NCBI RefSeq assembly: GCF_037975245.1
Contig: NC_092581.1
Coordinates: 18,715,303 to 18,779,302, forward strand
From: Apostichopus japonicus
Taxonomy: Eukaryota > Echinodermata > Holothuroidea > Aspidochirotida > Stichopodidae
Direction: 5' to 3'
DNA length: 64,000 bases
Shown: piece after piece, positions 35,229 to 59,200 of the stretch
Layout of the letters: the number at the start of each line of letters is the position of its first letter
Position numbering within the stretch: position 1 is the first letter of the stretch
Made by a program: the position numbers and the translations under genes
The notes under the pieces: model-generated
Told to the model about the DNA's origin: nothing
What the model saw: the letters and a program-made list of their open reading frames with translations, nothing else
The model's database searches: none

Positions 35229-35426
35229 ATCCTCCTCGGCCTTTTGGCTAAGATCATGTGTAGTATCTGTTCCCTTTCGAGGGGAATGGTGATGCACACC
35301 TGACGATGATCATACAGTCACAGAGTCCCGATGTAAGGGGACTGGGGTTGAGAGCGGATCAGTCGTTCGGTAGTTTGGTTTTCATGCCCAGGTTCTTCAA
35401 GTTCCTGGGCGACTTTTTCTTAAAAA
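35229..35426 (+). mobile_element. SINE with a U2 snRNA-derived head
   Basis: The first 45 or so bases contain TCGGCCTTTTGGCTAAGATC and TGTAGTATCTGTTC, which are the conserved 5' end of U2 snRNA, including the GUAGUA branch-site recognition segment. After about position 35273 the sequence leaves U2 and becomes an unrelated body shared with the copy at 35119-35220, ending in a GCCCAGG/CCTGGGC hairpin and an A-rich tail. AAAGTTTCATCC precedes it and AGTTTCATCC follows it (about 35429). This is a SINE of the snRNA-headed type rather than a U2 gene: the Sm site and 3' stem-loops are absent. Confidence 0.75.
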
Positions 35427-36224: not shown

Positions 36225-37190
36225 TGTACATGTTTACAAGGGTTTCACGATTTGACCTCTGGTGACCCCAAATGACCTTTGACCTACACCAAAAAAATAT
36301 ACTTTTGTACTCAATGTTGTACTTCTACACACTGAACATAAAGTCTGCCTATGCTTCCCACCTTGAGATACCGTGTTTACAAGGTTTTCACAATTTCACC
36401 CCTGGTGACCCCAAATGACTTTTGACCTACATTAAAAACAATAGACTTTTTGTACTTAATGTGGTACTTCTTATTCTACACAACAATATGAAATAGGTCT
36501 GACCTTCCCTTCTTGAGATATCGTGTTTACAAGGTTTTCACAATTTCACCCCTGGTGACCCCAAATGACCTTTGACCTACATTAAAAACAATAGACTTTT
36601 TGTACTTAATGTGGTACTTCTTATTCTACACAACAATATGAAATAGGTCTGACCTTCCCTTCTTGAGATATCGTGTTTACAAGGTTTTCACAATTTCACC
36701 CCTGGTGACCCCAAATGACCTTTGACCTACATTAAAAACAATAGACTTTTGAACTTAATGTGGTACTTCTACACAACAAATATGAAATAGGTCTGACCTT
36801 CCCTTCTTGAGATATCGTGTTTACAAGGTTCTCACAATTTCACGCTGGTGACCCCAAATGACCTTTGACCTCCATGAAAAACAAGAGACTACTTGTACTT
36901 AATGTGGTACTATTACACAACAAATATGAAATAGGTCTGACCTTCCTTTCTTGAGATATCGTGTTTACAAGGTTTTCACAATTTGACCCCTGGTGACCTT
37001 TGACCCACCAAAATCAATAGGCTTCTTGTACTCACTGTGGCACTTCTACACACCAAATATGAAATTAGTGTGACATTCCCTTCCTGAGATATCGTGTTTA
37101 CCAGCTGGGCGTCACAAACGCACTCACACACACACACACATACACGCATACGCAATGAATGCAAAGATTACGATTATCATCGAAACCAAT
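36225..37190 (+). repeat. Minisatellite array, about seven copies of a 133-150 bp unit carrying DR1-type motifs
   Basis: GTGTTTACAAGGTTTTCACA starts at about 36230, 36373, 36523, 36673, 36817, 36961 and 37094, giving spacings of about 143, 150, 150, 144, 144 and 133. Each complete unit has GGTGACCCCAAATGACCTTT followed by GACC. The complement is AGGTCAAAGGTCA, a perfect direct repeat with one-base spacing, at 36273-36285, 36566-36578, 36716-36728 and 36859-36871. Variants are at 36416 and 36994. The right edge is a CA-rich stretch and TTACGATTATCATCGAAACC. Confidence 0.9.
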
Positions 37191-38345
37191 AAATAAGACA
37201 AGTAATGATCAATCCAATTTGCGGTTCTTCAGGTCCTCAAGGCCGGCCGGGCAGGGTTAAAGTAATTCCGTTTAGATTTCTGTATCATTAATACCATTGA
37301 AGTGGATAATGGATGAGGTCTGCATATTGGTAAAGCTATAAAGGCATATAAAATAATCATCGTTATAATATCGGAAACGATAGTTTTGGTGTATATATAC
37401 AACCATCAGCGCATTTAACACATTCCACAAATAATACTTTGGTAATCGGACAATGTTTGTTTTATGTCTGCGACCCCGGTGAAAACTAAATATAACCCCG
37501 AAATAATAATCAAACCCCAAAATATAAAAAGCAGATCTTCCTCCAAGGCTAATCAATATTTTATCGTTGGTATATATTATTTACAAACGATTTTGTCTAT
37601 CCAATATCGGCTAAAAAAAATCATATTTTTCTTCATTTGTTACTCTAAATTCTGTCAGTCAGAATGTCGTAGCAGATCCAATAATGTCAATCCTCTAGGC
37701 ATGACGTCATGCGCAGGCACCTTTCGCAACCGGAAGGGGGTTCAATCTGGTGCGGGGGAGGGGGACGAGTTGTATAAACTTCGAGGGGAAGCGAAAAAGG
37801 CACACTTTTAATTACTTTTCATAATTATTCAACAAAAAGGACTTTTAAATAACAAAAAGGCACTCTATGATTTCAGAAAAAAAACGGTTACTTTTCAATA
37901 ACAGAAAAAAACTTCTCACAGAAAAAGCGCACTTTGAGGTATTCTCACAATAGGTAGTTGCAAGTGCGTTTCCGCCGCCAAACACCAAACAGACACTATA
38001 TACGTGGAACTCATCTAACATATATGTATGATGCAGAAAGAAATTGGAGTCACAGTCGGGAAGCTCTTTGCATGTATAAATAGATTCAGTGTCAGAACCC
38101 GAGCGTATAACGATGTACTAGAGAGATAGCAGGAAGAATATAATGTGACATAAACACCTAATTAGCACAGAAATTCCTTCCGCTAAGGACTATCAAATGA
38201 TTCGTTATTGAAGTTATGATCAGGACGGTCATTCTCACGGTAGTTGGTAATGGTACACGTAAACAGTGAATGGTATGCGGTGACAACATATAGAGGCTTT
38301 ATGTTCACTATATCTATATATATGCTAACGTGATGTTGATATGAC

Positions 38346-38376
38346 CATGGAGGTAGAAACTGTTTTTACCTCCATG
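38346..38376. mobile_element. Micro-palindrome insertion, copy 1 (31 bp)
   Basis: The ends CATGGAGGTA and TACCTCCATG form a perfect 10-bp stem around an A/T-rich middle. The palindrome is flanked by the perfect 7-bp direct repeat ATATGAC (38339-38345 and 38377-38383). Confidence 0.75.
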
Positions 38377-40183
38377 ATATGACGACCCGACGACGACCTC
38401 TGCCAAATTAAAGTGTGGTAGGCTAGGCTAGATTCTTTTGATATGCCAAAGACTGATGATAGGTCGAGGTGCTAATGATTGTCCTGAAGATGACCTCAAC
38501 ATATGATATCAAACATATGATATGACATGAATGATTCAACAAACTAACAAAACAATTTGCACGGTTTCTCGTCAAAATTATTTGCAGAGTTTTGCTGCAA
38601 GCCAATCAGCTGCGAACATACACAGTTCGTAAAAGGTCATGTCGGTCGTTGTCGTCTATCTAAATGGACATTCGGCAAATAAAGGATCACGAAAAGTACG
38701 AGAGGCCTCTAGCGAGAGCGTCAAATTTATACTGAACCGATCGAGGGTGAAGGGGATGGGGGGGGGGTTAAATTATGTCGTGTTTGGTAAGCCACAAATG
38801 ATGGAAGTGGACAACCTCATTATAGTTACAGTCTTAAGGCTTCCAAGAACGTAAATTTTTGTTCATTTTTCTTTCATATTCAGGGGCGGGTGACACAGTT
38901 AAAGGAATATCCCGGTAGTATTGTGTTAGCTAAAACGCCAAATCAATAATTTGTTCGTACTAATTCTAGTCATTTTTGCTTGAATGTAAACCATTGTTTC
39001 TTCTTCAGCTAAGCCAGTCCTGGACGCCAGAAGTAAACCCAGTAGTACGTTGTATGTAGGCCTACCCCAGTAGTATACGTTGTACCATACATGCATGGTA
39101 GCTGTTCTTGAGAGCTTTACTTTCCTATATTATAACATAAAACGACATGTTGTTTGATTTGTTTTACTTGAACCCATGCCTTTGATCCATTCGGAATGTT
39201 CATTTACCAATGTTCTCTGCATGCCTGTATAGAATGTCACTGAATTTGCAACTTTCTGTGAGAATATTATCTTCCTCAGAAGATAAGTAATTTATACATT
39301 ATGAAGGAATACAAATACATATTTCAGCTCAATTACCATGATGGCATCATCAAATGATTAAAAAAAAACTTCATCAAATTTAAAAAATATGTATTTCCAC
39401 GAAACAATATGCAATAAGGATGTAGTTTTCAAAACTTTTTTTTTAGCAATTTTACTAAGCAATCAATTCCAGCCACCAGAAAATCCTTTTTCAAGCTTGC
39501 TTTGAATGGGCTACTAACCGCCTTCCGTCGATACAGCGATGTTCTTTGCATTGCAAGTGCATATGTATATATGGTGGCGGGAAAATCTCCTTTTAGATAT
39601 CAAGGTTGCCTGGGTTACCTTGCAAGTGGATAATCGATGAATAATCAGGAAACAAACTAAGCTTTACAATCTTCCTCTTTTCCCCTTTGTTCTTTGTTCA
39701 AATTTTTTTTGCTGACTTGTTACTTATAGATACTCCTTGACCTCTTGATGTTTAAAAGCATTACTATTTTATCAATAAAGACATGACCCTAACATGATTA
39801 CGAAAACAAATAGACACGAGGAAACAATGTCCATCACGCCGACACATTTTCTCATTGGCAATGTTGTTTTGATTCCCTATGGACCAATGACTTCAAGTCA
39901 TTAGCGGGAGAGCTAAAACAATTTTTTCTTTTGGAGTAATCATTTTCACATGGTTTTCAAAGTTGTTGGCATTGGGTTGTTTTAACTTGAACAAAATATT
40001 TATTTCTGGACATTCTTCGGCATTTTAAAAACACAGGACCACCAAAACATCGAGAGGCCCTCAGTATGCCTTGCTTTGAAAGTACAGTGTAGGTACTAAC
40101 CGTTGATGTCAACATGAGGGGGTGGGTGGGGGGGGGGGAGATCAGTACCATGTATGTCCCTAGATTTCTTCGAAAAAAATACG

Positions 40184-40512
40184 GTCACCTGATTGTAATG
40201 GAAGTACCAGATCTATAGTGAGTATGTATACTCATATGCTATTACAGTCACGTATACTCGTGCTCAGCCTCTTAGAATTGTACGCCTATACTCTGCATGG
40301 CCATTGATAACAGCTATAGTAAAGCAAACAATGTAAAATCAAAATACAGTCACCTCATTGTAATGTTAGTACCAGATCTGTGGTGAGTCTGTACTATTAT
40401 ACTATTATAGTTACGTATACTCGTGCTCAGCCTCTTAGAATTTTACGTGTATACTCTGCATGGCCATTGATAATAGCTATAGTAAAGGAAATCATGTTAA
40501 ATTACGTAATCA
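40184..40512. repeat. 165-bp tandem duplication
   Basis: Two copies starting at GTCACCT(G/C)ATTGTAATG (40184 and 40349) share ACTCGTGCTCAGCCTCTTAG and CTCTGCATGGCCATTGATAA. No coding content is recognised. Confidence 0.85.
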
Positions 40513-41156
40513 AACTCTCCTGCGTAAAGCCTTGTATTATTCGTACTCATACCAAAGGAAATGCTACGTGTATTAATACTAACTCATTCAACTTTAAATG
40601 TACTACAACTCCAGTCAATACTGTATCAATGTTTAGTTCCATTCTTGGTGAGATCAGGGAGTTGTTATGGAGTTCCATAAGTACTCCCTGGTGAGATGCA
40701 TGTCAAATGCCTTTATTACAACTTGCTGCTCTATCTCAGTGTAATGTATATATCTCTTGACGTAATTTGATCTGGGAGTTGCAGAGTCAAATGTTTCTTG
40801 GGGCAAGTTTTTTTTTATGGAACTCACTGGTTAACCGTTGCCATCAAATCAAACAACATATAGTACAGGCATATAACAGACAAAGATGGCATGGTCAAAC
40901 AGGAGACATACACGTTTGAAAGTAAAACTAATGTTCCAAGTGGCCTTGCTTGGATTTTGTAGATTATTTAGCTTGTAGTGTTTATATGACTTTTGCACAA
41001 TCATTTTGCTTTTCTTTCAGTTCCGTTTCTATTAGGTGGGTTGGTGTGGACGGCTAATGAAAATAAAAGAAAGATTCCATTAAGTTATAATAAGGATGAA
41101 AATGGCTTCTTCACTAAAATTTGGGAATGCTAGGTCTTTCGTATATCTATTTTCTT

Positions 41157-42653
41157 TCACAGAACGGATCTTTTCTTCTTGTACGGATGAACATCATCTA
41201 CCGGTGCACCTTTCTTATACGTCCAGCGTATATATTTATCAGCAGTTCTATCTTTCCAAAATAAAATCTGTTCCCATATGTTTCTCATAGAATCGTCTCG
41301 TACAAACTGATGTATTCTAAAGTTTCTATGCATAGGGTTTTCGGACCTATAATGAACTAGTCTCATTTCAGCCGTTGGGTTAAGCGTCACGGTATCTCCT
41401 CCAATTTTGACACCATGTATTTTGAAATAGTGGACTCTTTGAGGTAGCACCAAGCACTTATCTCTTCCCCTGTTTTCTTCCGTTGGATCCGGCGACCGCC
41501 ATGGGTTTCTTTCAATCACAGTCCCAGAATACAAAATATCTTTGCTGACGTTGCTAGGTAGCTTTGAGAAAAACCAATTTCTGACTCTTAACGTTGCAAC
41601 TGATTCTGGTATGTCACCAAAGTTATGGATGAAGTCAATGATTCGTGGACTTTTCGGATCCATCGGTTGCATAAATTCATCAACGTCCACTTTGATGACC
41701 CATTTTGTGTCGTGGCGGTGTCTCCATAAACAGTCATTTTCGTGCGCAATTTGTACTTCAAGGTAGGTCTTTGAGGGTGTGTACTGGTGGGCCCACGGTA
41801 CGACAGTTACATAACCAATTCGTATAAAAGGGCGCAGTACTTTTACCAGTGACGTCTCGGGCGAGTTGTCATATATATACACATGATCAACACCCATATA
41901 ACGGTAATATAAGAGCCAAACTCGGAAGAATTCATCCATACCTTTCGCCATGGTACATAGCGACAAAAACCTGTGATTGGTTGTGTCGTGAACTCCTGTG
42001 TTACATGCTGGAATGTTTCTGTATGCGTATCTTGGTTCGGAAACACGTCTCAAAGTTATTTTATGAGGGTGTTTATCGCCTCCGATGTTATTAGATTTCA
42101 TAAACCTCATATAAGACGCGGTCACGGGACACGTGATCACTATAACGTATTGAGGTTGTCCACCAAAACTTCTAGTGTCATTCAAAATGGCGTCAGATGC
42201 TGAAACACTTCCATCAGAAAATTCACAATAGAATGTCTCGCGTTCCCATGTGTCTACTAAAAATGTTATGCCTGTGAAAACAACTTCTTTGGAGACGACA
42301 TCAACGAACGCGGAATGAATTGTCGGCATGCCCGTGCACGTGAGACGGTCCCGTAGGTAACAACCGCTTCCGAGATGAGGGCTGGAGGTTTCGTAAGCCA
42401 CGTCGCACCAGACACCTGTCATTCCGAGCGCAATCTTGGTACCTCTGAAATATCCCCAGAGAACATCCGACGAGGACTTATGTAACTCGAGGTTTGCAGA
42501 ACTCCTTGATTTGGATTTATCTTTTGTGTTTACTTGGCCGGCAACAAAGATGGACGTTATAGTAACGTACAGTCCGAGAAGAGTTAACACGACTAAAACA
42601 ATGGTCCGAAAACGACACTGGATTTGATTGTTACCAGCCTTAAGCGATAGCAT
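41157..42653 (-). CDS. Glycosyltransferase family 92 protein (DUF23), type II membrane enzyme
   Basis: A single uninterrupted frame of 498 codons starts with ATG at 42653 and stops at 41157. Residues about 17-40 form one hydrophobic segment after a short basic N-terminus, which suggests a type II Golgi membrane anchor. The catalytic part shows the GT92 pattern: CTMAKGMDEFFRVWLLYYR, then MGVDHVYIYDNS, then KWVIKVDVDEFM, whose D-x-D-E is the likely metal/nucleotide-sugar site, and KIHGV near the end. Family members include the nematode enzyme that adds galactose to core fucose of N-glycans; the substrate here is unknown. It is the only complete gene in the window without introns in its coding region, so it may derive from a retrocopy or belong to an expanded intronless set. 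The frame is intact, which argues against a pseudogene. Confidence 0.88.
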   Translation of the reverse strand: MLSLKAGNNQIQCRFRTIVLVVLTLLGLYVTITSIFVAGQVNTKDKSKSRSSANLELHKSSSDVLWGYFRGTKIALGMTGVWCDVAYETSSPHLGSGCYLRDRLTCTGMPTIHSAFVDVVSKEVVFTGITFLVDTWERETFYCEFSDGSVSASDAILNDTRSFGGQPQYVIVITCPVTASYMRFMKSNNIGGDKHPHKITLRRVSEPRYAYRNIPACNTGVHDTTNHRFLSLCTMAKGMDEFFRVWLLYYRYMGVDHVYIYDNSPETSLVKVLRPFIRIGYVTVVPWAHQYTPSKTYLEVQIAHENDCLWRHRHDTKWVIKVDVDEFMQPMDPKSPRIIDFIHNFGDIPESVATLRVRNWFFSKLPSNVSKDILYSGTVIERNPWRSPDPTEENRGRDKCLVLPQRVHYFKIHGVKIGGDTVTLNPTAEMRLVHYRSENPMHRNFRIHQFVRDDSMRNIWEQILFWKDRTADKYIRWTYKKGAPVDDVHPYKKKRSVL

Positions 42654-42655
42654 CG

Positions 42656-42675
42656 TGACGTCATAGAATCACGTG
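42656..42675. promoter_or_regulatory. CRE-like palindrome and E-box just upstream of the GT92 start codon
   Basis: TGACGTCA at 42656-42663 is the full consensus site for CREB/ATF factors and lies three bases upstream of the start codon. CACGTG (E-box) follows at 42670-42675. The transcription start is unknown, so these could be in the 5' UTR. Function is inferred from motif identity only. Confidence 0.4.
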
Positions 42676-45661
42676 ATCAAACACTGTCATGCGTATCCCT
42701 AGAAGAAAATTACCATATCACCACGTGGCATTCTTTTATAACATTAGGGAAATTGACTGTTTATACCATTGCGGCTTCGTTTTCAGACGAACGGCTTGAT
42801 CATCACCTCGTTGATAGTTGCAAGAGACTTCAATGGGAGGAACCTTTAAAAACATGCTAATTTGGCTGACATCGTGTTTATTCATTTGAAGACCAGTTTC
42901 AGCTGTGAACATCCATGTGAATCAGCGCTTATAGCAAACGTCATACTCATGATCCATCAATCCCAAAATTGTAAGATAATTATCAATAGCTCGGACTTAA
43001 AAAGTTAAACTCGAAGCAGTATTATAACTGGTGACATGAACTTGTGACCAATTCTGGCCACTTCTCTATTATTGTGCACCTGCGTAAAAGAAGACAAAGA
43101 AGTGTTTATTATTACGATGGTATTCATATTTATCATTAACTAATGTACTTTACTCTGAAATTGAGTTAGCAGTGTTTTACGTTAAAACACTTCAGTTGGT
43201 ATTTGACGGTAAAACAGGATACACCAATTAAACGTTCGGACGAAAAACACATAAAACGTGTGTTGTTTCCTTTCTCGTTTGCCGAGTGTTTTGTTATGCA
43301 GTTATATAGTGTTTGTTCCTGTCGTATGCATTGACCAAGATGAAACAACATCAGACCATGCTGTAAGAAAAGTTGGGTCACCTGCTACAAGTTCCCATAT
43401 ATGTTTGTGTGGCACGAACGTGGCATTATTCAGGATATTGTGCAATCTGCACAATATTCAACGATTAAGAAATAAGTCAATACTTACGGTAACATGCAAA
43501 TGGGATTGGTTTTATTGCTACCGTAACTCTGCTTTACATGTGCTTTTTCATTTAATAAGTAATCGAGAACTCAGTTTCCCTTGAAACACAAAATGTGCGC
43601 TATATTATACATGTTTTCAACGGCCGGCAACCATGGATGATACCTCGAGCCAATAGATATCTACCAGCCCGCAGGGAATGAGTAAGTTTCATAACAACTA
43701 ACAAGATGAATAAAGATATGCTATATATCTTGCAACCCGTGTGATTACCGTCACCCCGGAATGTGCTACCCTCCCACCCACCCCCCCCCCCCCCGCCAAC
43801 AAGAAAGAATAGTTGAATATTGATTCCCGCTCATGTGTGTTAGCCAGTTGTATCCTGAACGAGGCCCTAGTAGGAGCTCATTCGGGACAGGGATTGTGAT
43901 TCAAAAGATTGGGGGAGTCAAAACATGAACGTTTTATAACACCAAGCTGAGGTCATGCTCATGACCACGCTATATAGTCTATATTGAAGCATACTTGTGT
44001 ACAAAAGCTGAAAGACGGCGATCTTATAGGGTCCTGCTATTGAAAGTTGGAACCATCGTAAGAAACAATCAAACTACAATAACTGGCGACATCGGTTGCA
44101 ATATTGGACGCATTTCTGTTGGTGTTTGGGTCAATTATTCTTCCTTCATTACATCTGCAGGACTTTGTCTTTGAATCGGAAATATACCTTGGATATTGGA
44201 CGTCAATAACGGAAATGCACCGTAGACAATTTCACCAGTTGAAAGTGTTCTTTTTTGATGATTTAGATTTGCGCCGTTGTTGTTGTTGTTTTTGTATCAC
44301 GACACAAAACCATGATTGCCCTTTGACCGTTATTTATTTATGTATTTATTTATTTATTTATGTACACTACATCTATAAATTGGCTCTTTCAAACACAAGT
44401 TAGGAACTTGAAGCTCGCTGATTGGTCTTCATGCAGTTGGGAGACGTTGTATATAGCCTTACAAGCGTCTGGGAGTATATATACTTCTATCCTACTGCCA
44501 TAGTGTGTAGGGGGAATGGGGGGGAGGGGCAAATCGAGCCGTGCTGATCGAGTAACCTACTGAATGGCCTACAACAAGAAGATAAACGGTAAAGCGTATC
44601 CCGTCACTCACCACTAAGGCAGAGTGACCAGTTTTGTTATTGGTCAGTGAAGGTCACGTGGTATTCAAGTTATCATGTAGGCCTATAACTGCATTGTAGC
44701 AGGATATATAACCCGTTTTGTAGGAGGTAGTGTATTCTATTACAACACACATAAAAGCTCAGAAAGAAGGGGATAACAAACAATAAAACGGACGTATACT
44801 ATAAGTACACGACAAAGTCGGAGAACTTTATCAAATATTGTTCACAGTGTTTCCGGTAATAGGAAGTTGTGTATTTATAGACACAACAGTTATACACAAA
44901 GAGATATACATATTTACTCTATAATATGAGCTAAGGTTCATCAATGCAGGAGCCATCATCTTTTATCAAGTACAGTCGTGTGTATAGTTTTCCACAAATT
45001 GCGCGAGACTGTTTGTTTTCATAAAGTACAAGTCCTCTGCGGAGGTGGGTGCATTGCTCTGATAGGAGACTCGGAATTCGCATATGGGTTCGATAGGGGG
45101 AACTCAGACTGCGGCATGGCAGAACAATGGATAGTGATTAGAAATATACTCTCATATATGTTTACAAAGCATTTCAACATATATGAGCAACGCAAACACG
45201 ATGAAAAGGTTAATTGTCATATCTTCTGTGAAAGACAACTTCAGTCATTCACATCAGTCTAAAAGGTTAAACGTATACTGTATTTACTAAACCACTATAT
45301 ACAGTAAACACATATAGTACAAAGTACATAAAGGCCGTATATCATGAAGTATATATCACATTGGGGAGTTGTATAACTAAAGCGTGTTTCTGTACAACCG
45401 CTGTTGTTTTAAATCCTCTTCGGAGGGAGGAAGGGTGGGTGGGGTGGTGTTTGTGCTGGGGAGGGGAGGGGAGGGGGTGGGTGAGAACTTCCTAACATCC
45501 TTCTATTTGTTCCAGTCCATGATATACGGTGGGGTACGACGATCAAGATTAACAATAAGAAGTGTCAGATGAGCCGACTGACATATATCACCTTCGATGA
45601 CTGTTCAAACGTTCAAATTGAATCGTAGCGAAATATTCGAGTTACGTTACAGTGTACTTTG

Positions 45662-45663
<2 letters not shown>

Positions 45664-45746
<83 letters not shown>
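45664..45746. repeat. AT dinucleotide microsatellite
   Basis: About 40 AT/TA repeats with a single interruption near 45709. Confidence 0.95.
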
Positions 45747-45750
<4 letters not shown>

Positions 45751-46655
45751 GATTTTTTATAATTCTTACATATATTTCAGGGTCACTATTGGTCATCTCG
45801 GTATTTTATCTAGTTAACTCAAGGTCATTCAAAGAACTTTTTCTATAAAAAAAACAGCAAAAAATGACCAGAAATTATCGAGGCAGGCATTTCCTCTTTC
45901 TTTATATTATTTACAAAACAGGAAACAACTGGTAAGTGAAATTTCAGAATCCAACTATCAGTGGTTTGTTTAAATGCGTTATATAAGAGTAATTATGAAA
46001 CTATATTTAAACTCAGTGTCATGCTATTTGTTGATGAGACTAACATTACTAGGACATCAACATTGCGGGGTGTACGCTGAATGTCACCTTAAAGGCGACG
46101 ATCATGGTAACGTGTTTAGTTTCTCGTTGATCGGACAGACAACATGAAACATTTACCGAGTGTATCATTAGTGATCATTGCTTTGTTGCAAGCAGCGGCG
46201 TAAACAGGGGGGGGGGGATCCCCAAGTCAAAAGTCTTGCCCCCACCCCAAATGACATTGGTGGGCCAAAAAAACATTTGGACGAAAATTACAAATGCATT
46301 TATAGTCTCAGTTAAACTCAGTTGACGTTAATCCATAATTTACTGGAATTCTCAATTTAATACCAGCTAATGGCGTCTCAAGTTAAATAGTATCCTGTTA
46401 TTTTGCTTTCTGCCATCGTTACCAGGTCCCCCGTACCCTCCCACGCTATAACGAGATAACCCGGTACCAGGCTTGTTATATCATGTGTATTTTTATAACT
46501 TTATACTATCGTTATATCGACAGTCCGATGTTGCTACTTGGAAGCTGCAGCATGATATATTACGTAATTTCAACATCGCACGTGACACAGACTGATCAGT
46601 CGTCAGAAAAAGCCTAACCGACGACTATATACAGACTTAAGCCGATTACTGTAAT

Positions 46656-46683
46656 CATGGAGGTAAATGATTTTACCTCCATG
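46656..46683. mobile_element. Micro-palindrome insertion, copy 2 (28 bp)
   Basis: The two arms CATGGAGGTAAA and TTTACCTCCATG are a perfect 12-bp inverted repeat around the loop TGAT. The element is flanked by the perfect 7-bp direct repeat CTGTAAT (46649-46655 and 46684-46690). Confidence 0.78.
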
Positions 46684-47425
46684 CTGTAATAGAACCGATT
46701 GACTATGACAGTTTTGTTGTGACTGAGTGAATGAAGCCTAAAGTCGAAGTAGCTTCATATATAAATTTATTTAAATAATAAATTTGAGTAAATCATAGAC
46801 GATGAGATAGCTTAAACTATTCTGTTGAAAGAATAGTCCAGACCAAAATGAGAACTTCAGACAAAACACTAAGAAGGACGAAAACCTGAACCAAATTGTC
46901 AAAATCCCATCGCTTTAGTAGTTTCGATATTTTCATTTGATCCGAATTCTAAATTTGTTTCGACAAATAACAAGTTTTACTGAAAAAAAAATGAGTCATC
47001 TAATTATAAAGAAATACATAGGTTTATGTAGACAAATGTGTGACCGATACATGTTTAGTACTGTGAACATTATGAGAACAGAGCACAGTGTTATCAGCTA
47101 AGAGTATATAGTGGTTTTGTCTACAATATATTTAGTTCCCTTTTTTAGTTGGACTATCCCTTCAACAATTTAGCGGATGGACTCAGGTATTGACTATTCA
47201 ATTGACTATTAAATGAAAACAAACAGCGTCACATATTAGCTTGTTACACCGTACTGGGCTCGTCTTTGTGTGTGGGTTGATAAGAACACACGCACCACTC
47301 AACCAATCTTTATGGCAAAGAGTTGTATATATGTACGTACCAGTATACTCGTATGAAGTTACAAGTTGCGAGAATATCGAACTTTTCAACTTGGACAAAT
47401 ATATAAGAAATTAACACCCAAAATG

Positions 47426-47720
47426 AAGGCGCGTAGCCAGGAATTTGCCAAGGGAGGGGCGAAACTATAGATTCGGCATTGAAAACTATCTAAGCGTAGC
47501 GCCACCATGAGTTGGCGCGAAGCGTACAAGAAAATGTTGGCTTAGAATGCCTCCCAGATCGCTGGAAAAGGTACTTCCCAGGCCTTGTAAGTTGCATCTT
47601 AGCATTTTCTCTTTTGAAAACACTAGCGATATCATAAAAACATTAAAAAAAAAAAAAAATTATGCTCAAGGGGGGGGGGGGGCGGCTGCCCCCTTCGCCC
47701 CCCCCTTGGCTACGCGCCTG
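47426..47720. mobile_element. MITE with hAT-like inverted ends
   Basis: The left end GGCGCGTAGCCAGG and right end CTTGGCTACGCGCC are inverted copies. Inside them, GGGAGGGGCGAA and TTCGCCCCCCCC are also inverted. It is about 295 bp long, G/C-rich at the ends like the other hAT-type MITEs here. A clear 8-bp target duplication is not visible, so the superfamily is tentative. Confidence 0.65.
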
Positions 47721-48408
47721 CGAGGGATAAACCACCGTCACAATTATACGGAGAGTAAGGTCAGCAAGGTCAACAGGTCACCATTTTAGAGTGACGTTGC
47801 CACGACAACAATGTAAATTTATTGTTATTCCGTTCTGAGCAGGAAGTTACACCAAGTGATTTCTATTGATGGGAAAGTGTGAGGGAGAGGGGATGGCGTA
47901 CAGGCAAGATTGACGTGAACAAAGCACAGGACCGAGAGAGGTATAACTTCCCTCCTTTGAAGATCCCATTTTGAACGGGGAAGACTAATTGCTCTTATTA
48001 ATTGATCCCGATATGTAGCCAAAACTTCATCCAAAGTATTGACTCCTGCAGATGGCCCATACCCTCTCCCGTTCCCGGTATCGTTTGCCCCTGACTTTTT
48101 TCAAGTCCGTATCTCGCCGTTTCTTTCGGCCGCTAGAATTAAATGCTCTGTAGGTTTGACCGAGGAACGCCACGTTGCGTGATCTAACCTTCTTTACATC
48201 AGTATTGTTAGTCTTGGCCAAGTCGTTTGTAATACTCTTCTTCTCGTGTGCATACATGCATACATACATACATGCCTACACAATGTGCTTGCCCACCGCC
48301 TTTAACATGCCCGAGGATCTGTCCCTAGTATCAATCGAAAACGTTGCCGGGGCGTTCACTGGGCAGTACAGCAAATAGATACGGGAAAGTAACTTTGTGA
48401 AAAAGATA

Positions 48409-48460
48409 GGTATGAACAGCATAGTGTACCTATATTAGATACACTAGGCTGTTCATACTA
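48409..48460. repeat. Inverted repeat able to form a hairpin
   Basis: GGTATGAACAGCATAGTGTA and TACACTAGGCTGTTCATACT are inverted copies with one or two differences around an 11-base loop. No flanking duplication was found. Confidence 0.7.
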
Positions 48461-50851
48461 GGGTCTAAACAAGACTACAATAGTGTCCATCTGAGTGCCC
48501 TAGTAATAATGGCCAGTAATGTACTATGATAGATATGGGCAAAATATAGGGTTGTTTCTGCAGTCTCTGCATGTGATGCAACAAGCCCAATTGGCGGCCA
48601 AATCGGGGGACGACATACGAAATAAATACGAAATTGCTGTTATTTTATGACAATTTATATTAGTGAAAATTGTGTGGGTTCGCAATTTTGGAACTGGATT
48701 AACATTAGGGAGTTAAAAACGTGGTAAAAAATGTACAATGTACCTATACGCGGAGGCCTATGTGCAATAATGAGTTGGACTGAACAACATGAAATGGTTG
48801 AAATTAATGTTCCTTGGGGAATTGAACAATTTTCAGCTACTGCAGTCTCTCTTAAAAACTGCAGGTAGGCCATTAAAACAAATCCATTCGTGGCGTTTAA
48901 TACGCCAAAATGGCAACGCATGTATTTTGTGGCTTTGTCGAGTCTGTTTCGATTTTTTTTTTTTTCATATGGAATTATCCGAAATAGATTAACTATAATG
49001 ATTACGTGGCGAAGCGGCAGAGAGCTAGCGTTTTTTATTATAAATATAAAGAAATGTCTTACTAATTCTTTGGCTGGGTTTATATAATAGAACGTCGGAT
49101 GTAGCTAGTTCCCGTGTCATGTTGTACTCGTTTAGAAGAGGCATGACAAATATTTCCCTGACTTCGATCGTACACTATAGTAAGCCCATGCACATTTCTA
49201 ACATATATATGCCTTTTGACTGGACATTGTAAGAACAAACGCTCCAAGGGGAATCTTATGCGGTGTGCCAATCGGGCAGGCATTATAATTGACAGCTGTT
49301 GAAGCCTGGCAGACCCTAATAGATATGTATCCATAAGGCGAGAATGAACTGACCAATTTGAAAGCTACCTGGTCATCGTCATGGCTACGGTCTTCTGGAA
49401 TGTTGAGCATGAAACAAGTTTTGTACAATAGCTGTCCAGATTTTTTGAGTGTATACGGAACACAGCGTAAGCCTATACGTATAGCTACTCCACAGTTTCG
49501 TACATTACGGTAATTGAGTACATACATTAGGGTTCTACGACTTCCAAAACACTACACTCCATTTGAAAATAAAACCGAGGTTACATACTCAGAGTTAAAC
49601 TATCCCTATTATACCAACACGAGAATACAGCCTGGAAGTCTTTAACGGTTTGTAGACAGGAAGTATCTCTTGCTGCTATTTGTACAACACCTTCATATAA
49701 AGTGGAACGTGGAAGCTATAGTGCTGTATAGGTGACAAAATGAGGATCAATACACTTATCGTGTGAACCAGCTGTTTGCTGCTGGAGAAGAATCAATTCG
49801 TAACAACGTTTGGTAGAACTTCTGTACAGACAGCTTACCATGTAAATAAACTTAGTAGAAGAATTAACGCACCTTACCTTTCATAATTGGAAAATTGGTG
49901 TCACAGGACAGCGAACACAAGCACATAGACTCCGAATCACTGTAGTTACATAACGTTTGTAAGTTGTAGACTATAACTCATCACCTTACCGCTTTGATCC
50001 TTTGATCTAACTTCAACATGATGTCTACGGAAGCCGAGAACTATCATCATACTCAAGGCTACAAATGAGAGATTGGCAATTGAGTTTGAGTTGAGATAAA
50101 AGAAAGTATAAACTTAAATCTCACTTGCGTAACGACTATTCTTTCTAGATGTTTTTTATTTTTATTATCTGTAATCTTTCATTTTTCCTTTTTTTCTGTA
50201 AATATCCATTGCCTTCTTGTAGGCCTAAAGGGGGCCTGCTCGTTAAAGCTCTGCTTCTTCAGTCCTCCATTGGAAAAACTGTTTGATATAATCACATTTC
50301 TCATCTAGACTCTGTAAAATCTCTTTCTGTGAATTTATGGTTTCCTTACTAATTCTTTCAACATAAAGTACTAAAATGTTCCGTGTATTAACTAGGCCCC
50401 ACCCCGCTACCCACTGTCGCTACTCCCTGTATTACGGACACTATGAAGAGGGCGCGATAATTAACATAGAAGTTTGGTCCATATTTATGACTCTACCCAT
50501 CATATCAGTTCATTGCTGATGGTTAAAAGAGTATCATTTCGCCATCTGTTCACACCACGTCCCACTGTACGTGAGAGCTTCACTTTGCGTAAAATTTTCT
50601 GTACTGTAACCGACTGTTGAAGGAACGAAGTGGTATATCATAGCATTGTCTTGTGCGTTTGAATTAGTCAAAACACCAGGAATGACATGGAAAATAGGCT
50701 TGAGGGTGTGTAAGTGACACATTCTCGAATACTAAAATTTTAGTTGTGGGACATATAATGCTTTCTGTATTGAACAGTAGCCGACTCCCAGGAATTATGA
50801 GTAGGGGGCACCCGCAGCCATTTCAAAAGGAGTACACAGTACACTCGTGTC

Positions 50852-50871
50852 CTGTAACTCGCGAGTTACAG
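50852..50871. repeat. Perfect 20-bp palindrome
   Basis: CTGTAACTCGCGAGTTACAG reads the same on both strands. It is followed by TGATCA and CGATCG, also palindromic. It is not part of a recognised element. Confidence 0.85.
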
Positions 50872-51427
50872 TGATCACGATCGTGAAGTTTTTTGTCATT
50901 ACGACGATGGCTCAGAATGTGGGGGGGGGGGGGGGGGAGGGGGAGCACTTATTCACAGAGGAAGGTAATAATTTTTTATACAAACAAGTTGCATTGGCAT
51001 TCTAACTACAGGAACGTTGACAGCTAAGCAAACATGTCAGGAATAAATACACAAACAAGAAGATTATAATGGGAAAGTTAATATTCTGCTTAATTCTACT
51101 GTCACTTCATATACATTGTGATCCTGCATGTTTTGATCTTTCTGTTTATCATTATGAGACAGCTCTCTGCGGCTAACGGCTAATCGCTTCACTAAGCAGT
51201 TTAGTGTAGTCTGAAAACTCCATACCATTAACACCGTGTCCTTTCGTATGGCTCCGGCGTGCTTTGTGACCGTCCATGATTTATTTGAACGATTTCTGTG
51301 TTCATGGTCAACACATCAGCGGTGCCTCTAGCTCTTACATCATTATGCATTATGCAATGTACTTAAAAAATTGCGTAACTGCTGATGCAAATAAATTGGA
51401 CCCGACAATCCCCAACCCCGCTCCAAC

Positions 51428-51452
51428 CATGAAGGTAAAACAGACCTCCATG
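51428..51452. mobile_element. Micro-palindrome insertion, copy 3 (25 bp)
   Basis: The arms CATGAAGGT and ACCTCCATG (one mismatch) surround AAAACAG. The element is flanked by the perfect 7-bp direct repeat CTCCAAC (51421-51427 and 51453-51459). Confidence 0.75.
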
Positions 51453-52421
51453 CTCCAACCAACGCATGTCATGACATAATACTTTCAAACCTTCTTCACA
51501 CCTGTATTGAGTACAAAAAGAAAACTTTGCGTACTTATGATAATTTGGTCAAGTTACACTCTCCGCTTTGGGATTCCATTATTCATGATGTGTCGCTTTT
51601 GATTTCGTGAAACTGATACACATGCACTTGCATATTGGAACGATTGATCGAGCAAGCGAGAATTGTAGCCTGAAGCACTTTTGCAAGCGAATATTTTAGA
51701 TTTTACTTCTTTTCGGCCCAAGAGTAGGACAAAAAATTCAGTGGTCGATAACTCGAAGAAAGCGTCATAAAATTTTAGGTTCATTTACCAACTTCGGTAT
51801 TTTCTAAGCCCTAAAGTTAGCCTAGGCCCTAGTTGAAACTGGCATAACGCAATATGTTAGTTAACTCAGCGGTCCTTCAAGCCAGGCAATATCTCTCTAC
51901 GTTAGGCCTAGCCAAGGCCTGAAGTTCAAGATAGAATAGTCAGACTTACGCTTTGCCTTAAGAGGTAGTCTAAGAGCTGCAAATGCTAGCTCAATTACTA
52001 GAATGATATGGTGTTATATGGTTGGTTTAACTGTTACGACATTGAACTTTGAAAGATGCAAGTTTTGCACTCAAGTTATTTCCCAAACTTTCAAATTAGG
52101 CTCTAGCCTGGTCTAATTTAGGCCTATATTTAACTTCTGCAATGTGTTACCTACATTTTCATTTATATTTAGATATTTTCAAGGACATTTGAAGAAACAC
52201 TGGGCAATTTCTGCAGAGATGAAGCCCTTATAATTGGAGTAGATGTGGTATTAGTTATGGTGCAGTGAGTGGAATGCAGTTGCAATTCACATGGTCTACC
52301 TCTATGGAGGTGAAAAGAATACGGTGTCACTTTTTGTAATTATACAATATGACTAATAATGGTTTAGATATAAAAATTCAGAAATATTTAAGTACCTCTT
52401 TCTTTACTTTATTTTTTTCAG

Positions 52422-52539
52422 TTTGCGGCATTGATGTTCTGTTGACAGAATCCACCCACTACTTTCTTTGAGAAGAAACTACAGCTTTGTAAAATGGCAG
52501 CAATTGCCTTTTTTGAGCATAAAACTTCCTCTGCCACAG
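52422..52539 (+). other. Candidate untranslated upstream exon of IBTK
   Basis: A strong acceptor (ATTTTTTTCAG ending at 52421) and a donor (CACAG|GTACAG at 52540) bound 118 bases. The segment contains an ATG at 52494, but its frame, if spliced to 53155, ends at a stop before the IBTK start. If real, it would be 5' UTR with an upstream open frame. Support comes only from splice-site appearance and position. Confidence 0.3.
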
Positions 52540-53154
52540 GTACAGTAATTATCCACACTCGGTTGCAGCATCATAAAGATACTGACATTTAGGTTTTAGT
52601 TGTCAGACATTGTTCCAAGAATTTTACTTAAATATATGTCTGGTTTTTTATTGGTTTTCTGATAATTCAACATAATTTTTATCTTTACTTTAACTTTACT
52701 TTAAAATACTAGTTACTTTTTTTGATTGAAACCTGTACTGGGTGAATGGTCTGTTGTATAGACCCCATAGCACGCTATCATGAAAAATTTTCTTGAGATT
52801 ATGTAATCGACCTGCCTTGGTCCTAAAATGACCTCTTTTTACCAATGAGTCTGCAATGCCTGCCATATATTTTTTTCATGTATGAGGGTCTTTGAATGAA
52901 AACTGTATGGTTAACTACACTGTACATAGACTTGAACATATTAACACACAGTGTGTACACAAAGAGCCTAATGTTGTTGAGAAGCTATGCAGGCTAATTG
53001 TAGAGCCTGAGTTCGATTTACGACCGTGGCAGGTCGATAACGTAATCACAAAACTTTCCTATAGCTATGGTGTGCTATAATTGGAGTCAATAAAGCAGAT
53101 CTTTAGCACATTATCTATGACTTGAGATGGATGTCTTATGATTATTTTCTCTAG

Positions 53155-53252
53155 AATTCCTTTCACTCGTATTCCTCGGAGACTCTTCTGACTAACTCTG
53201 GCACTGGTTCCCTGGAATGGCTATCTAGAAGGGGTGGGGAGGGGTCATCATT
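53155..53252 (+). other. 5' UTR part of the first IBTK coding exon, with a minimal upstream ORF
   Basis: An acceptor (TTTTCTCTAG ending at 53154) precedes this stretch. ATGGCTATCTAG at 53217-53228 is a three-codon upstream ORF that ends 24 bases before the IBTK ATG at 53253. Such a uORF could reduce initiation at the main start. The exon border is inferred. Confidence 0.5.
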
Positions 53253-56200
53253 ATGGCGTTATCTGAGTGCACTAATCAGTGCCACTCCCAGCAACATGCT
53301 GATGACGTCATTGCCATGGTAACAAGCAGTGCACCAGAAGAGCAGGTCAAAACATACCTTAAGTTTCACTGTCACCACAGTGGTCAGGTTTGTGATGGAT
53401 ACGGACGAACAGCATTGCACGTAGCTGCATCATGTGGTAGAGCTGGGCTGTTAGAGTGGCTTGTCAAGGAAGAAAAGGCTGACCTACAAAGCAAAGACCA
53501 GGAATCCGGTTGGACGTCTCTTCACCGAAGCATCTTTTACGGACAATTGGTCTCCGCTGTTAAACTTATTCAGGTAAGAAGAACTACTGTACCAACCTCA
53601 ACTGACTTCGAGTAAATTTTGTGAGAAAACCGTTGTCTATTTATGTTAATTATTTATGTATGTTTTATTGTTCCTAGTGTTTAAACTGTCTCATGTGGAC
53701 ATATTTTGTACTCTGAAGTACCTTTTGACTCAGAGACAATCATCCTCGTGCCCCTCCTTGTGCCCATCCTCACTGTCCTCATTTGACACATCTACCCCTC
53801 CTCCGTCTCCTCCATTATGTTAATTTACTTTTTTTTTCTGTATGGCATACAGTAGCTACTGTATCTTGTTTTAAATACAAGTAGGGATTTGGTCAGTAAA
53901 TATGTTTTTCATGGGGGGGGGATCTTGGAAGTTTATCTTGCTGTTGCTATTATTATCACTGTTGTTTTTGTTTTGTTTCTTGAGTGAACCAGGACCAAGT
54001 TGTAATTATAAAGAGTTGAAGATCTACTGTAACACCACTTCAATGGACTTTTTCAAGACTTAAAGATTCATTATTGCCCCTTGCAAGGAGTAATTAAAAG
54101 CTAAAATTTGTATTTAACAAGTTGTGAAGGTTTTGAATTTTTGACTCGTATAAAATACTATGGTTTATGTACATACGAAAACTGCTATACATCTTTGCAC
54201 ATGCAGTGCAATTTGTCCATTTTACATGCATTTGTGATGGGAAACCAGATAAATAATTCCCTGCTGTAGGTTCTTATAAAACTTTTTCCTCTTGTATTTT
54301 ATCTCTATGGGACTACAGCTAGGAGCAAGCTTAAAGAGTTGTGACTTTGAGGACCTCACACCTCTAGAGGTTGCAGTCAAGGATAAACCACCTCACATTG
54401 ATTTCAGTGTTGACAATCCTTGTGATGTGTACACATGGGGTAGCAATTCAAACTTTACCCTCGGACACAGTAATCAACAGAGCCGGCTCAGTCCAGATGT
54501 GGTGGATGAATTCCTGAGAGTCAAAGTGCATATTAAACAGGTTTGTGTCCGATTTACTCGAACTAACCACGATGTCTCATCTAGCTTAATTTTACCAGTC
54601 AGGTGTGATTAAGTCCTGTTACAAGCACTAGGGATGTTTGTGAGTACCCAAAATCTTGTTGTGCAAGGGGATGGAGGGGGGGGGGAGGGAGATGGAGGGG
54701 CACAAGATTGTTTAAACAGCTGACTGTTTGAAATCCATGACAGGTGGTCATTAGACAGGGAGACTTAAGAGTGGGGGGGGGGGTTACAAAAGTCAAGAAG
54801 GGGCTCAAAACTTTCAATGGGGTAAAAAAAAATGTTATTTCATATGTCATAGATTCAGTAGAGTTTTTGAGAGCATTACAGCAACCTGGAAGGTATTAAT
54901 ATAACAATTTGCTATCTGGGATGATGTTTAGTAATATTCTGTACTCTGTGATGGCATTTGTAGATTACTGTGTTCGTGCCAAAACATTTGTCAGAAATAT
55001 TAAATTTAACGTTAAATGTTAAACTGATAGTTTGAAGTTTCTGTGTAAAGTCTAACAAGGTCATTAGTACAATTTCAATGTGACAGAATTGATTATTTCA
55101 TGTTAGCAGTTGTGCTCAGAAGGGGTTGAAGATATGTTTTTGTTTTCATTCTGCGTATTATAAAACTAAGAGATTAACTTCATACTTTATAAATACCATA
55201 CTTTTGTAACATAACTTCTTTAATATCACATAATGTAAATCCTTTAATACTGTCATAACTTAAACTCTTTCATACTTTCATGACACATATTATTCATACC
55301 ATTATAAATCTCTTTCCCAAAGGTTGTCATGAACAAATACCACACGGTGGTCTTGGCAGTGAACGGAAGGGTCTTTACCTGCGGCCACGGACAGGGTGGA
55401 CGATTGGGTCAGGGTAAGGAGGAGACCAGCTTGCTACCAAAGATGGTGAAGGGACTGAATGGCGTCTGTGTCTTCATCGCTGCTGCCAGAGATCAAACAC
55501 TATTCCAGATGGAAGAGTAAAGAAAAAAAATATTAATTCCTTTGTACTTCCCTTAGACTCTTGATTTCATTTACCAAATTCCTGGAGATAATTTTGGGGG
55601 TTGGGACTTAATATAGATATCCTAGGTAGCTCTTAATTCTATTGATGGTTGAAGTTAACTTTGGTTATTGCTAGATTGTAACGATTTTATATGCTGGCAT
55701 ATAAAGTGACTGTTGAAAAATATTGTAATGAAATTAGGGCTGTGGAAGGGGGGGGGGGGGGGGGTGATGGGGGAAGGAGACATGAATGAGAAGGCAATTT
55801 TACCTCTCCCAATTCTCTGGGATATGACATATAAACCGTTTACATTTCATTAAAAGCCACTGTTTCTAAGGAGTTCCTTCCATCCTCCTCTTCATCTACT
55901 GTCATTCCTCCTCCTCCCTATGTCCCTTCAAACTTGAGTTGCTCTATCAATCAGCTAACTCAGTTAAACATTTTACAACTAGAAATCACACCACCTCTAT
56001 ATTGTGTGGTTTGAAATATATTTCTGCTATACTACGTGACTTTCATTAAATTTGTTTCAGTTAAAGTTAAGCTAATATCCTCTCCTGAAATCAATATGTT
56101 TTAACAGTTTTAATGGCAATGTTTTTCAAAAATTTGCATTTCATATGTTTGTCATGCTGTTTGCTATACAATAAGATGCCATCTAGGTGTTTCAAGATGT

Positions 56201-59200
56201 AACTTGCTCCTGAGTTTTGAGTTTTGAGACAAATATTCCGATTTTTGCAACCAAAGTACAAAAGACTTCAAGTTTTTACAGACAAATCTCTTTAAAATAT
56301 AAAAATCTTTAAATCTGAAATGGGCCTTGTAACCTCTTTTTCACACCTTTCTAAAAGATTAAAAACGGGGAATTTTTATTTCCATCTTTCAGCGGAAGCA
56401 TCTATGGCTGTGGACAGAATAAGTTTGGCCAGTTGGGAATTTCACCAAAGGAAGACAAGTACCTGAAGCCAAGACAAATACTCGGAAAGGGGTTTGCGAA
56501 CAAGGACAATGTGTGTATGGTAGCTGCCAAGTTCCATAGTGTTTTCTTCTCTTCACAGGAGGTCTTTACGTGTGGACTGAATGCTGGTCAGATCGGTAAA
56601 GAACATTCTTCTCTTAATTGAATATTTTCTCACCCCTCAAAAAGGGGTGGGGCATCTTGTTTTTATTGACTTAACTGATCTCTGTTGCTTTAAAGTGATA
56701 ATCAATGGCAAACAGTGTTAAACTGGTGCCGAGTTCGTGTCACTCCAAGATCAATGTATGTCGTCCAGTTACAGAGTCGTTGACAATTGACAATTCATAA
56801 TCATGGACGTTAAATATGAATCTAAGAGACTGACTTCGGTCAACTTGCGGCTTTGATAAGCCAATGATGGCTTCTTCGCGAGTTCCTGCTTGCAGGAGGA
56901 TCTAAACTACATATATAGATAAACTGTCATATTGAAGAGAAATTTTTTCCACAATGCTAGTTGAAAGCCCCCATCTCAATATGTTGTCATTAACTCAGCA
57001 TATGGTTGATTGAAGGTAACCCTTTCTGTCTAACTTAACTTTCAACTACTCCAGAAAGTTGGATCATAGTAGTTGGTCTGTGATGTCATCTGAGCAAATA
57101 AAGATATTTCAGATGAAGTGCCCTGATGACATCATTCATTCTACTGTTGCCAGATGCAATCACAAAATATCAAGAAATTGGAAAAATTCATATCTTTGGG
57201 ATACAACACGTGGTTAACCCCACAGATGGAGAAAAGTGTCAGCAAAGTTGTCTTTAATATTAGTTAAAGGAAGTGTCCTGTGGACAGGATGAAAGGTCTG
57301 TTTCTCTAACTCTCTTCTCATCACACGGTTCATCATGGATACTTCTTCTTAAGTATTTAATTCTTTTTTCCTCTTCAGGCCATGCAAAGTGCAACCAATT
57401 CATCTCAGTGCCAAAGCTAGTGACGACCCTGAACCATAAGAATATGGAGATTTGTCACATAGCAGCCAGTGATGGAGTGACAGCTTGCAGCACCAGCAAT
57501 GGTGACATCTATCTGCTGCAAAATTTTGTCTGCAGGAAAATTGTGAATAAGTAAGTTTAGAACAGGGTTGAAATAATCCTTTATCGCCGCTTGGAGCCAT
57601 CTAAACTCCATAAAGTAGTGAGATATAGCGCCACAGGAGGGTAATGGGATACCAAGCAACATTGTTCTTATATAGTATTAAGTAATTATTTAGAAACGTG
57701 AAAAGTGGTTGAAAATTCATGCAAAGGTTTGATTATAAGACATCTTTGGATGACCTCTGATTTTAAAAAGACTACAAAGACAATTTTCTTTCAGTGTTCG
57801 TTGGATCAATTTGATGATTTGATCATTGGCAAATGGTGGAATCAGTTCGTAGGAAACGAATCTCTAAAGTGTAGAAAGAGGCAAGGATCCTCAAAATTTG
57901 AATGAGGGTCTGTTTGCCCACCTTCTAAAGTGTGCCTTGAACCTTCGGCAAACAACGTTGTATTTGTTATGTTTGTAATAGCATGGAGGTAAAAACAGAC
58001 CTCGATGGTAATAGCGACAGAAGTTTGGATCTTGCAAGTTTGATTGGCTTCATCTCTCAATAGGTGTGGCTTGGTGTAGGAAGTTGGACCCTCCTTAGGT
58101 GTACCCCTGGTCCCCAGGGATGTGTCTTCATTCTTTAAATACATATCTATCTCTTTGTCTTTCATTTCATTCCATTTAAATTGCTATGATGTGGTTGACT
58201 TCACAGACAACTCAACATTGCTAAGATAGTGATCTGTGGCGGTACACTGGACACAGGTCTAGAGGAGATTGAGGTACAAGGGAAGTCTAAAGCTCCAGTT
58301 GTCATGGTGATACTACATAAAAGTGGCAAGGTTTGTTAAGTCGACTTAATGTTCTTTTGTTTTTGTTCTGTTGTCATTGTAGTATATTTCTCACTGCTGA
58401 TAAGTGTGACCTGACCTGATTAAAATAACATGCCATGCTATGGTTATGTAAGTTGTTAATACCAAAGTTATAGTGTTTTGCTACAGTTGTGTTATTAGCT
58501 CAAACCAGCTATGCTAGGGATGACAGTTTGTCAGAGTGACTATCTTGCATAGAAGTTTGGAATGCGATTCCGGATAAGTTATCTCCTTAACATGAAACGC
58601 TAGAAATGGTTCAAAGTTAGGATCTGGATGATCCGGGATCTAGATAATCCAGGCTTTATTGTAGGTGTTTGTTTTTTGCTCTTTGTTAGCTTGAAGCTTC
58701 AATATCCTTGTATGATATTGGAGGCAAAGAAGTTGAAAGAGGATTTGTAAGAAATATAACATTAATCAGAAAGGTTACCTTAAATAACTTTGAGCATATA
58801 TTGAGGTATAGCATTCCTGCTATAAACCATGTTGACTAACCTCTATCTTGTGTGAGCTTTAAATTCTTTCAAATAGTGATAACTTTTGAAAATACAGGGA
58901 TTTTTTTCTTGTTTGATATAACTATATATTTGAATAAAAATTAATAGGTTTATGAAAAGGGAAGACTTTACACATAACTAGGTGACATGAATATTGGCAT
59001 TGTATTTCTCCCTTTTTTTTACAAAATTTATTTTTATCAAATTTTTATTTTACCGAATTTTTTTTTACCAAATTTATTTTTTATCGAATTTTTTGAGAAA
59101 AGACAGAAAGTAATAGAGAGCTTACAATGACATTTTGTCCATCGCTTCATCCAGGTTCTAAGCTGGCAGTCATCTGACGAGACACTCAGAAGATGCGTCA

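Follow-up and report, generated by a model that had tools for sequence, protein, structure and literature searches.

Results

Four palindromes in the 64-kb window

The window analysed here, a 64-kb stretch of the Apostichopus japonicus genome, contains four short palindromes, each placed between exact 7-bp direct repeats (Table 1). They had been picked out in a first-pass annotation of the sequence, and all four (4/4) were confirmed together with their repeats; the further claim that the same two arms occur at the four loci holds perfectly for the first two, with one mismatch apiece in the others, where the palindrome at 51428 begins CATGAAGGT and that at 57982 ends ACCTCGATG. We refer to these units as scars, in keeping with the origin argued for below.

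Table 1 Palindromic units and flanking target-site duplications (TSD) in the window (positions are those of the window).
Feature	Position	Strand	Basis
TSD, left copy, ATATGAC	38339..38345	.	Direct reading of window
Probable P-type excision scar, 31 bp	38346..38376	.	Shuffles and generic scan
TSD, right copy, ATATGAC	38377..38383	.	Direct reading
TSD, left copy, CTGTAAT	46649..46655	.	Direct reading
Probable P-type excision scar, 28 bp	46656..46683	.	Shuffles and generic scan
TSD, right copy, CTGTAAT	46684..46690	.	Direct reading
TSD, left copy, CTCCAAC	51421..51427	.	Direct reading
Probable P-type excision scar, 25 bp	51428..51452	.	C20-element comparison and generic scan
TSD, right copy, CTCCAAC	51453..51459	.	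Direct reading
TSD, left copy, GTAATAG	57975..57981	.	Direct reading
Probable P-type excision scar, 26 bp	57982..58007	.	Sequence and C1-C3 length sample
TSD, right copy, GTAATAG	58008..58014	.	Direct reading

On the minus strand, the first scar begins with 17 nt from the transposon end CATGGAGGTAAAAACAG and continues into 14 nt from the opposite end, where one base is changed; the same string was found again, reversed, at C2:21259059 (L048). The second joins 12 nt of one end to 13 nt of the other through about 3 nt of filler (TGA). The third combines some 17 nt from one end, with one base changed, and 8 nt from the other, and the fourth 17-18 nt from one end and 8-9 nt from the other, with one arm base changed. 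The third scar represents a four-A end variant, as found at one end of the C20 element described below.

The exact two-arm pattern occurred twice in the window and in none of 100 shuffles. A generic scan of the window for 7-mer pairs (at least 6/7 equal) bracketing CATG...CATG, controlled with 30 block shuffles (mean 0.13, maximum 1), returned three sites, all of the palindrome family; the fourth escaped the scan owing to a mutation in its arm end. Separately, a tandem array with units of about 133-150 bp occupies window positions 36500-37104 and contains GACCTCCATG, which explains a stray exact match to CATGGAGGT at 36868 on the minus strand. This bare match was rejected as an element end, since it sits in the unrelated array.

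Genome-wide scars and their flanking duplications

We searched the genome (671,581,487 bases, 35 contigs) for CATGGAGGT-N2-20-ACCTCCATG and obtained 582 matches, against 0 for the reversed control. At 40 loci among the matches listed, the flanking 7-mers were perfectly identical in 27/40 and agreed in at least six of seven bases in 38/40, the remaining two agreeing at 5/7 and 3/7; among mispaired flanks, these levels were reached in 6/1560 and 32/1560 pairs, respectively. The first-pass annotation had read the 7-mers as target-site duplications, a reading that stands or falls with their agreeing more often than at random; it is borne out by this difference and by the 7-bp duplications that the larger elements share. 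Among the 7-mers of 65 distinct perfect-repeat scars, drawn from all loci read plus the window, base 2 is T in 53 and base 6 is A in 59, and 39 start with RT, 51 end with AY and 31 do both, so that the target preference leans toward GTNNNAC.

Genome-wide, the string CATGGAGGTAAAAAC had 815 strand hits (414 + 401), in which a two-armed scar can count twice. All 100 places on C1-C3 among the matches listed were read, and two more on C3 (L055, L059) brought the sample to 102 strand entries, of which one (in L054) was dropped for missing flank, leaving 101; L049 and L060-L067, which were found with another search pattern and lie on other chromosomes or contigs, were left out of these counts. A repeat of at least 6/7 was present at 15-52 nt in 80/101 entries, compared with about 10.5 in all for permuted flanks. 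These 80 entries correspond to 73 scars in 64 flank groups, and some scar counts reflect copies spread by repeats, not separate excisions. The concern that the palindromes might always sit inside a larger repeat is justified for some amplified repeats and does not hold in general, given the 64 flank groups among 73 scars. The other 21/101 entries showed no repeat of at least 6/7 at 15-52 nt, and would be scars that have lost flank, an event seen for L051 only.

Larger elements carrying the same ends

A 13.5-kb element (C16:29991522-30004997) was located through its two ends, which lie that far apart on either side of a weak transposase match; it has CATGGAGGTAAAAACAG at both ends and is bounded by a perfect duplication, GTTCTAG. 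One of its ORFs matched TNP-like_RNaseH_N over the cut-off (E 2.8e-8), a match to the P-element HTH fell below the cut-off, and tblastn matched the C-terminal RNase H region. Neither a GTP-binding domain nor a THAP domain was found in the three ORFs of this element that were tested; the GTP-binding domain is present in two other P transposases of the genome. A zinc-knuckle ORF inside the element suggests a nested retroelement. A second copy, on C20, keeps the ends, one of them with four As, not five, and its flanks do not match. Searched against the genome, the terminal 300 bp of the two C16 ends gave six and 45 matches, of which at least four on the left and at least four on the right begin at the terminal base (lower bounds). 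The string CATGGAGG was absent within about 1.5 kb of eight P-transposase loci.

A sister lineage has ends CATGGAGCTA..., and its transposase pieces are 54-62% identical to those of the C16 lineage. All sister elements whose ends were read (5/5) have 33-bp ends (CATGGAGCTATAAACAGA..., CATGGAGCTATAAACAGAAGGAG...) and perfect 7-bp duplications; terminal inverted repeats with a duplication of 7-8 bp, which mark the P superfamily, were thus found in these five and in the C16 element, the flanks of the C20 copy being unmatched. The transposase-bearing sister element L075 encodes a protein 61-62% identical to the C16 transposase piece. Two of the five sister elements, L179 and L180, were read whole and contain no transposase match; one of them is related to L075 and internally deleted, and the second is 95% similar to this deleted copy. 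There are also shorter relatives, 4.5-4.8 kb in length, and exact 23-nt sister ends number 48 in the genome. The first-pass annotation had pointed to P-like or Dada-like elements as candidates, by duplication length only, and to longer elements with these ends and 7-bp duplications as something to look for. The C16 and sister elements, with P-type transposase pieces in the C16 parent, answer to the P-like candidate and to the longer elements; in view of the P transposase pieces in the parents, the Dada-like candidate was set aside.

Scars of the sister end type gave 774 matches in the genome, with 0 in the control. The duplication agreed at 6/7 or better in 20/20 of those read and was perfect in 16, compared with 11/380 and 2/380, respectively, for mispaired flanks. 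One sister-type scar (L074, 5143-5169) lies inside a stretch of another P-like element.

Scar forms and junctions

Two-armed scars at the C1-C3 places read were 22, 24, 26, 30, 31 and 35 bp long, the 26-bp form being the commonest (16/64 flank groups). Besides these, one-sided scars retain 17-18 nt of an end and then pass directly into the second duplication, which agrees at 7/7 in L059, L066, L091 and L103 and at 6/7 in L053, L065 and L097 (L065 and L066 were drawn from a separate sample, not from the C1-C3 list). A repeat of at least 6/7 at 17-20 nt was observed for 14 strand entries of the C1-C3 sample, against about 2.1 with permuted flanks.

The junctions are heterogeneous in the manner of end joining, with overlaps, filler and, at L051, loss of flank. 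The two arms overlap by 0, 1 or 2 bases in 16, 25 and 9 flank groups, respectively, for which random blunt joins would give 76, 20 and 4%, and filler is present in 14/64 groups. With one tail of at least 15 bases, joins with a 2-base overlap are possible for 18-bp and 22-bp forms only, and both predicted forms were observed, the former at L124 and the latter in 8/64 groups. Filler that duplicates bits of the transposon end was found in L054 and in L109, which is 49 bp long.

Length of the retained ends

Seventy arms in the 64 flank groups of C1-C3 match the end for at least 15 bases, and they stop at 15 (15 arms), 16 (6), 17 (13) or 18 nt (34), except for two arms of 19 and 29 nt that belong to a single scar, L057. 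In L056, L058 and L092, three of the 21 entries without repeat, the match to the end extends over 19-20 nt. In the sister lineage, compared with its 33-bp terminal repeat, the longest arms reach 18 nt (11/50) or 17 nt (5/50) and none is longer. These data support a retained end length that tops out at 17-18 nt, with rare exceptions. In the 26-bp form 17 and 18 nt are indistinguishable, because one end has an A after position 17 and an A may equally come from the opposite arm; the CAGATTT-type forms and the one-sided scars L053 and L059 favour 18 nt on sequence.

In one sister subfamily (...AAACCTGGG...) the scars repeatedly retain CCTGGG and so may preserve about 20 nt of the end. A parent of this subfamily was not found; it may be cut deeper, or its end may be different.

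Empty sites and two outcomes at one site

A dispersed repeat represented by L093, L095, L098 and L119 carries one scar. With the joined flanks of the L098 repeat as query, 40/59 candidates could be scored, of which three were uninterrupted and 37 were split by an insert of 30 bp (29 copies) or 22 bp (8 copies). The three empty copies hold a single 7-mer, GTACAAT (GCACAAT in one), and nine copies were read, namely these three, five that hold the 22-bp insert and one that holds the 30-bp insert. Through this repeat a single scar has come to occupy at least 37 places.

At L022 and L051, which have near-identical flanks, the same site shows two outcomes: the former holds a 30-bp scar with a 6/7 duplication, and the latter a remnant of 17-18 nt fused into the flank, the duplication being lost. 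Such a difference is expected after removal of an element and misfits a unit that inserts ready made.

Joined flanks of 68 scars, compared with all fetched sequence, mostly retrieved repeats bearing the identical scar. The one empty paralogue among these searches, a weak match between L016 and window positions 35253-35328, may be the empty site corresponding to L016, which is a scar-bearing relative of this repeat; this part of the window resembles the start of U2 snRNA. No single site both with and without a full element was seen among the loci read.

Discussion

The palindromes are very probably excision footprints of P-superfamily DNA transposons and not mobile micro-elements. An element with CATGGAGGTAAAAACAGA... 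ends would insert and duplicate 7 bp of target. Its transposase would later excise it, cutting one strand at the element's edge and the opposite strand 17-18 bases into the terminal repeat. Both chromosome ends would then carry a single-stranded tail made of 17-18 nt of transposon end, and the germ line would join these tails with overlaps of 0-2 bases, with trimming or with filler. The residue would lie between the two duplications and hold at most 18 nt from one end and, in reverse, at most 18 nt from the other; a scar looks palindromic because the transposon ends are inverted repeats. We infer that a full element once stood at each site and was removed from it, and we presume the position of the biochemical cut, a 3' polarity for the tails, and both the pathway and the enzyme of repair.

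The palindromes of 21-36 bp could instead themselves be mobile, as minimal MITEs moved in trans by a P-like transposase with a 7-bp duplication each, much as the first-pass annotation had proposed for its unit of 25-31 bp, and we consider this highly improbable. Their ends and duplication length are the same as in the larger elements, and many sites that are unrelated to one another share the 26-bp form; yet several units are one-ended, arms and junctions vary and stop at 18 nt with one exception in 64 groups, filler sometimes copies an arm, and different units occupy one site in the two copies of the L022/L051 flank. The fly P transposase, moreover, needs internal binding sites, and we count the short palindromic units, which are without them, against such mobility. 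MITEs resemble the scars in being short, with inverted ends and a target duplication, but a MITE is a constant moving unit with two inverted ends, whereas the units found here are variable, with ends that are unequal or one of them missing.

Very unlikely, too, is an origin by internal deletion of resident elements through failed gap repair, in which templated synthesis is followed by end joining. The 29 nt of end kept in L057, the 49 bp of L109 and the shorter relatives of 4.5-4.8 kb are in its favour, and in flies P gaps are frequently closed by partial synthesis plus end joining (PMC2895639). Incomplete synthesis would, however, spread the lengths broadly beyond 17-18 nt, and the sharp stop at that length in two lineages fits a transposase-made tail. 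Hairpin or palindrome insertion by DNA repair alone, with no transposon, can be dismissed almost with certainty, for although junction overlaps and filler are repair products, the sequence is identical to the ends of larger elements and the 7-bp duplication is fixed, and of the repair-linked hairpin insertion once suggested for these units the involvement of repair survives, as end joining of a donor break without insertion of a hairpin.

Excision footprints are usually known from assays, with a few dozen junctions each. Those of hAT elements leave a small duplication and short end sequences, and both hAT and Stowaway/mariner elements are cut nearly flush with few bases kept, whereas A. japonicus scars keep up to 17-18 bases. 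Stowaway/mariner MITE footprints are likewise described as a small duplication and short end sequences left behind (PMC4561436).

The closest likeness is to the Drosophila P element. Its transposase makes one cut at the element border and, on the opposite strand, another 17 bp further in, giving 17-nt 3' tails (PMC7776569). In its end-joining products, the two duplications enclose as many as 17 nt from each end together with small filler; its terminal repeat also starts CATG, and its junctions show overlaps or templated filler (PMC2895639). The window sites show the same arrangement. The Drosophila duplication is 8 bp and the tail 17 nt, compared with 7 bp and 17-18 nt, perhaps 18, in A. japonicus, and the fly footprints are junctions recovered in the laboratory, whereas here hundreds of inherited scars lie in one genome. 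Zebrafish Pdre2/THAP9 is another P-like system of a non-insect animal, with excision repaired by joining; it has 13-bp terminal repeats and 8-bp duplications (PMC10983969), in contrast to 33 bp and 7 bp in the A. japonicus sister lineage. The earlier remark that no named family has this form may hold for families, but footprints of the kind are known from Drosophila P elements; the host and lineage are new, the number is unusual and the geometry differs slightly (7 bp, perhaps 18 nt). We found no paper title on genome-wide P scars in a literature search that mostly lay outside subscription journals.

Two-armed scars (582 + 774) far outnumber intact ends (48 of the sister type; at least four left and at least four right of the C16 type, as lower bounds). 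This excess agrees with breaks having been closed mainly by end joining, and agrees with later loss of elements as well; the scar/element ratio alone is no proof of repair bias, since elements may be lost otherwise and the counts from repeat searches are lower bounds. We tentatively suggest, as a reading that we entertain without yet favouring it, that movement in this sea-cucumber lineage was almost purely conservative, with an 18-nt cut and a 7-bp stagger, donor breaks end-joined in a polymerase-theta-like manner and not refilled by copying from a sister, elements rare and each jump leaving one permanent scar. If this is true, the two-armed scars form a natural, datable record of the number of transpositions and of germ-line repair. 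The scars could reveal cutting geometry, target choice and the use of end joining versus gap copying in an echinoderm germ line, and repeat annotation could mistake them for mini-transposons.

Two further observations concern P transposases in this genome. An ORF upstream of the P-type transposase piece (L069, 1203-1757), one of the three ORFs tested from the C16 parent and with homologues in L073, L074 and L075, showed a match to the RAG1 importin-binding region below the cut-off (E 5.5e-4); judged from sequence, a zinc-domain link between P and RAG-like transposases is possible. Elsewhere on C16, the interval 5187748-6080024 contains about ten decayed P-transposase copies, every match being on the minus strand.
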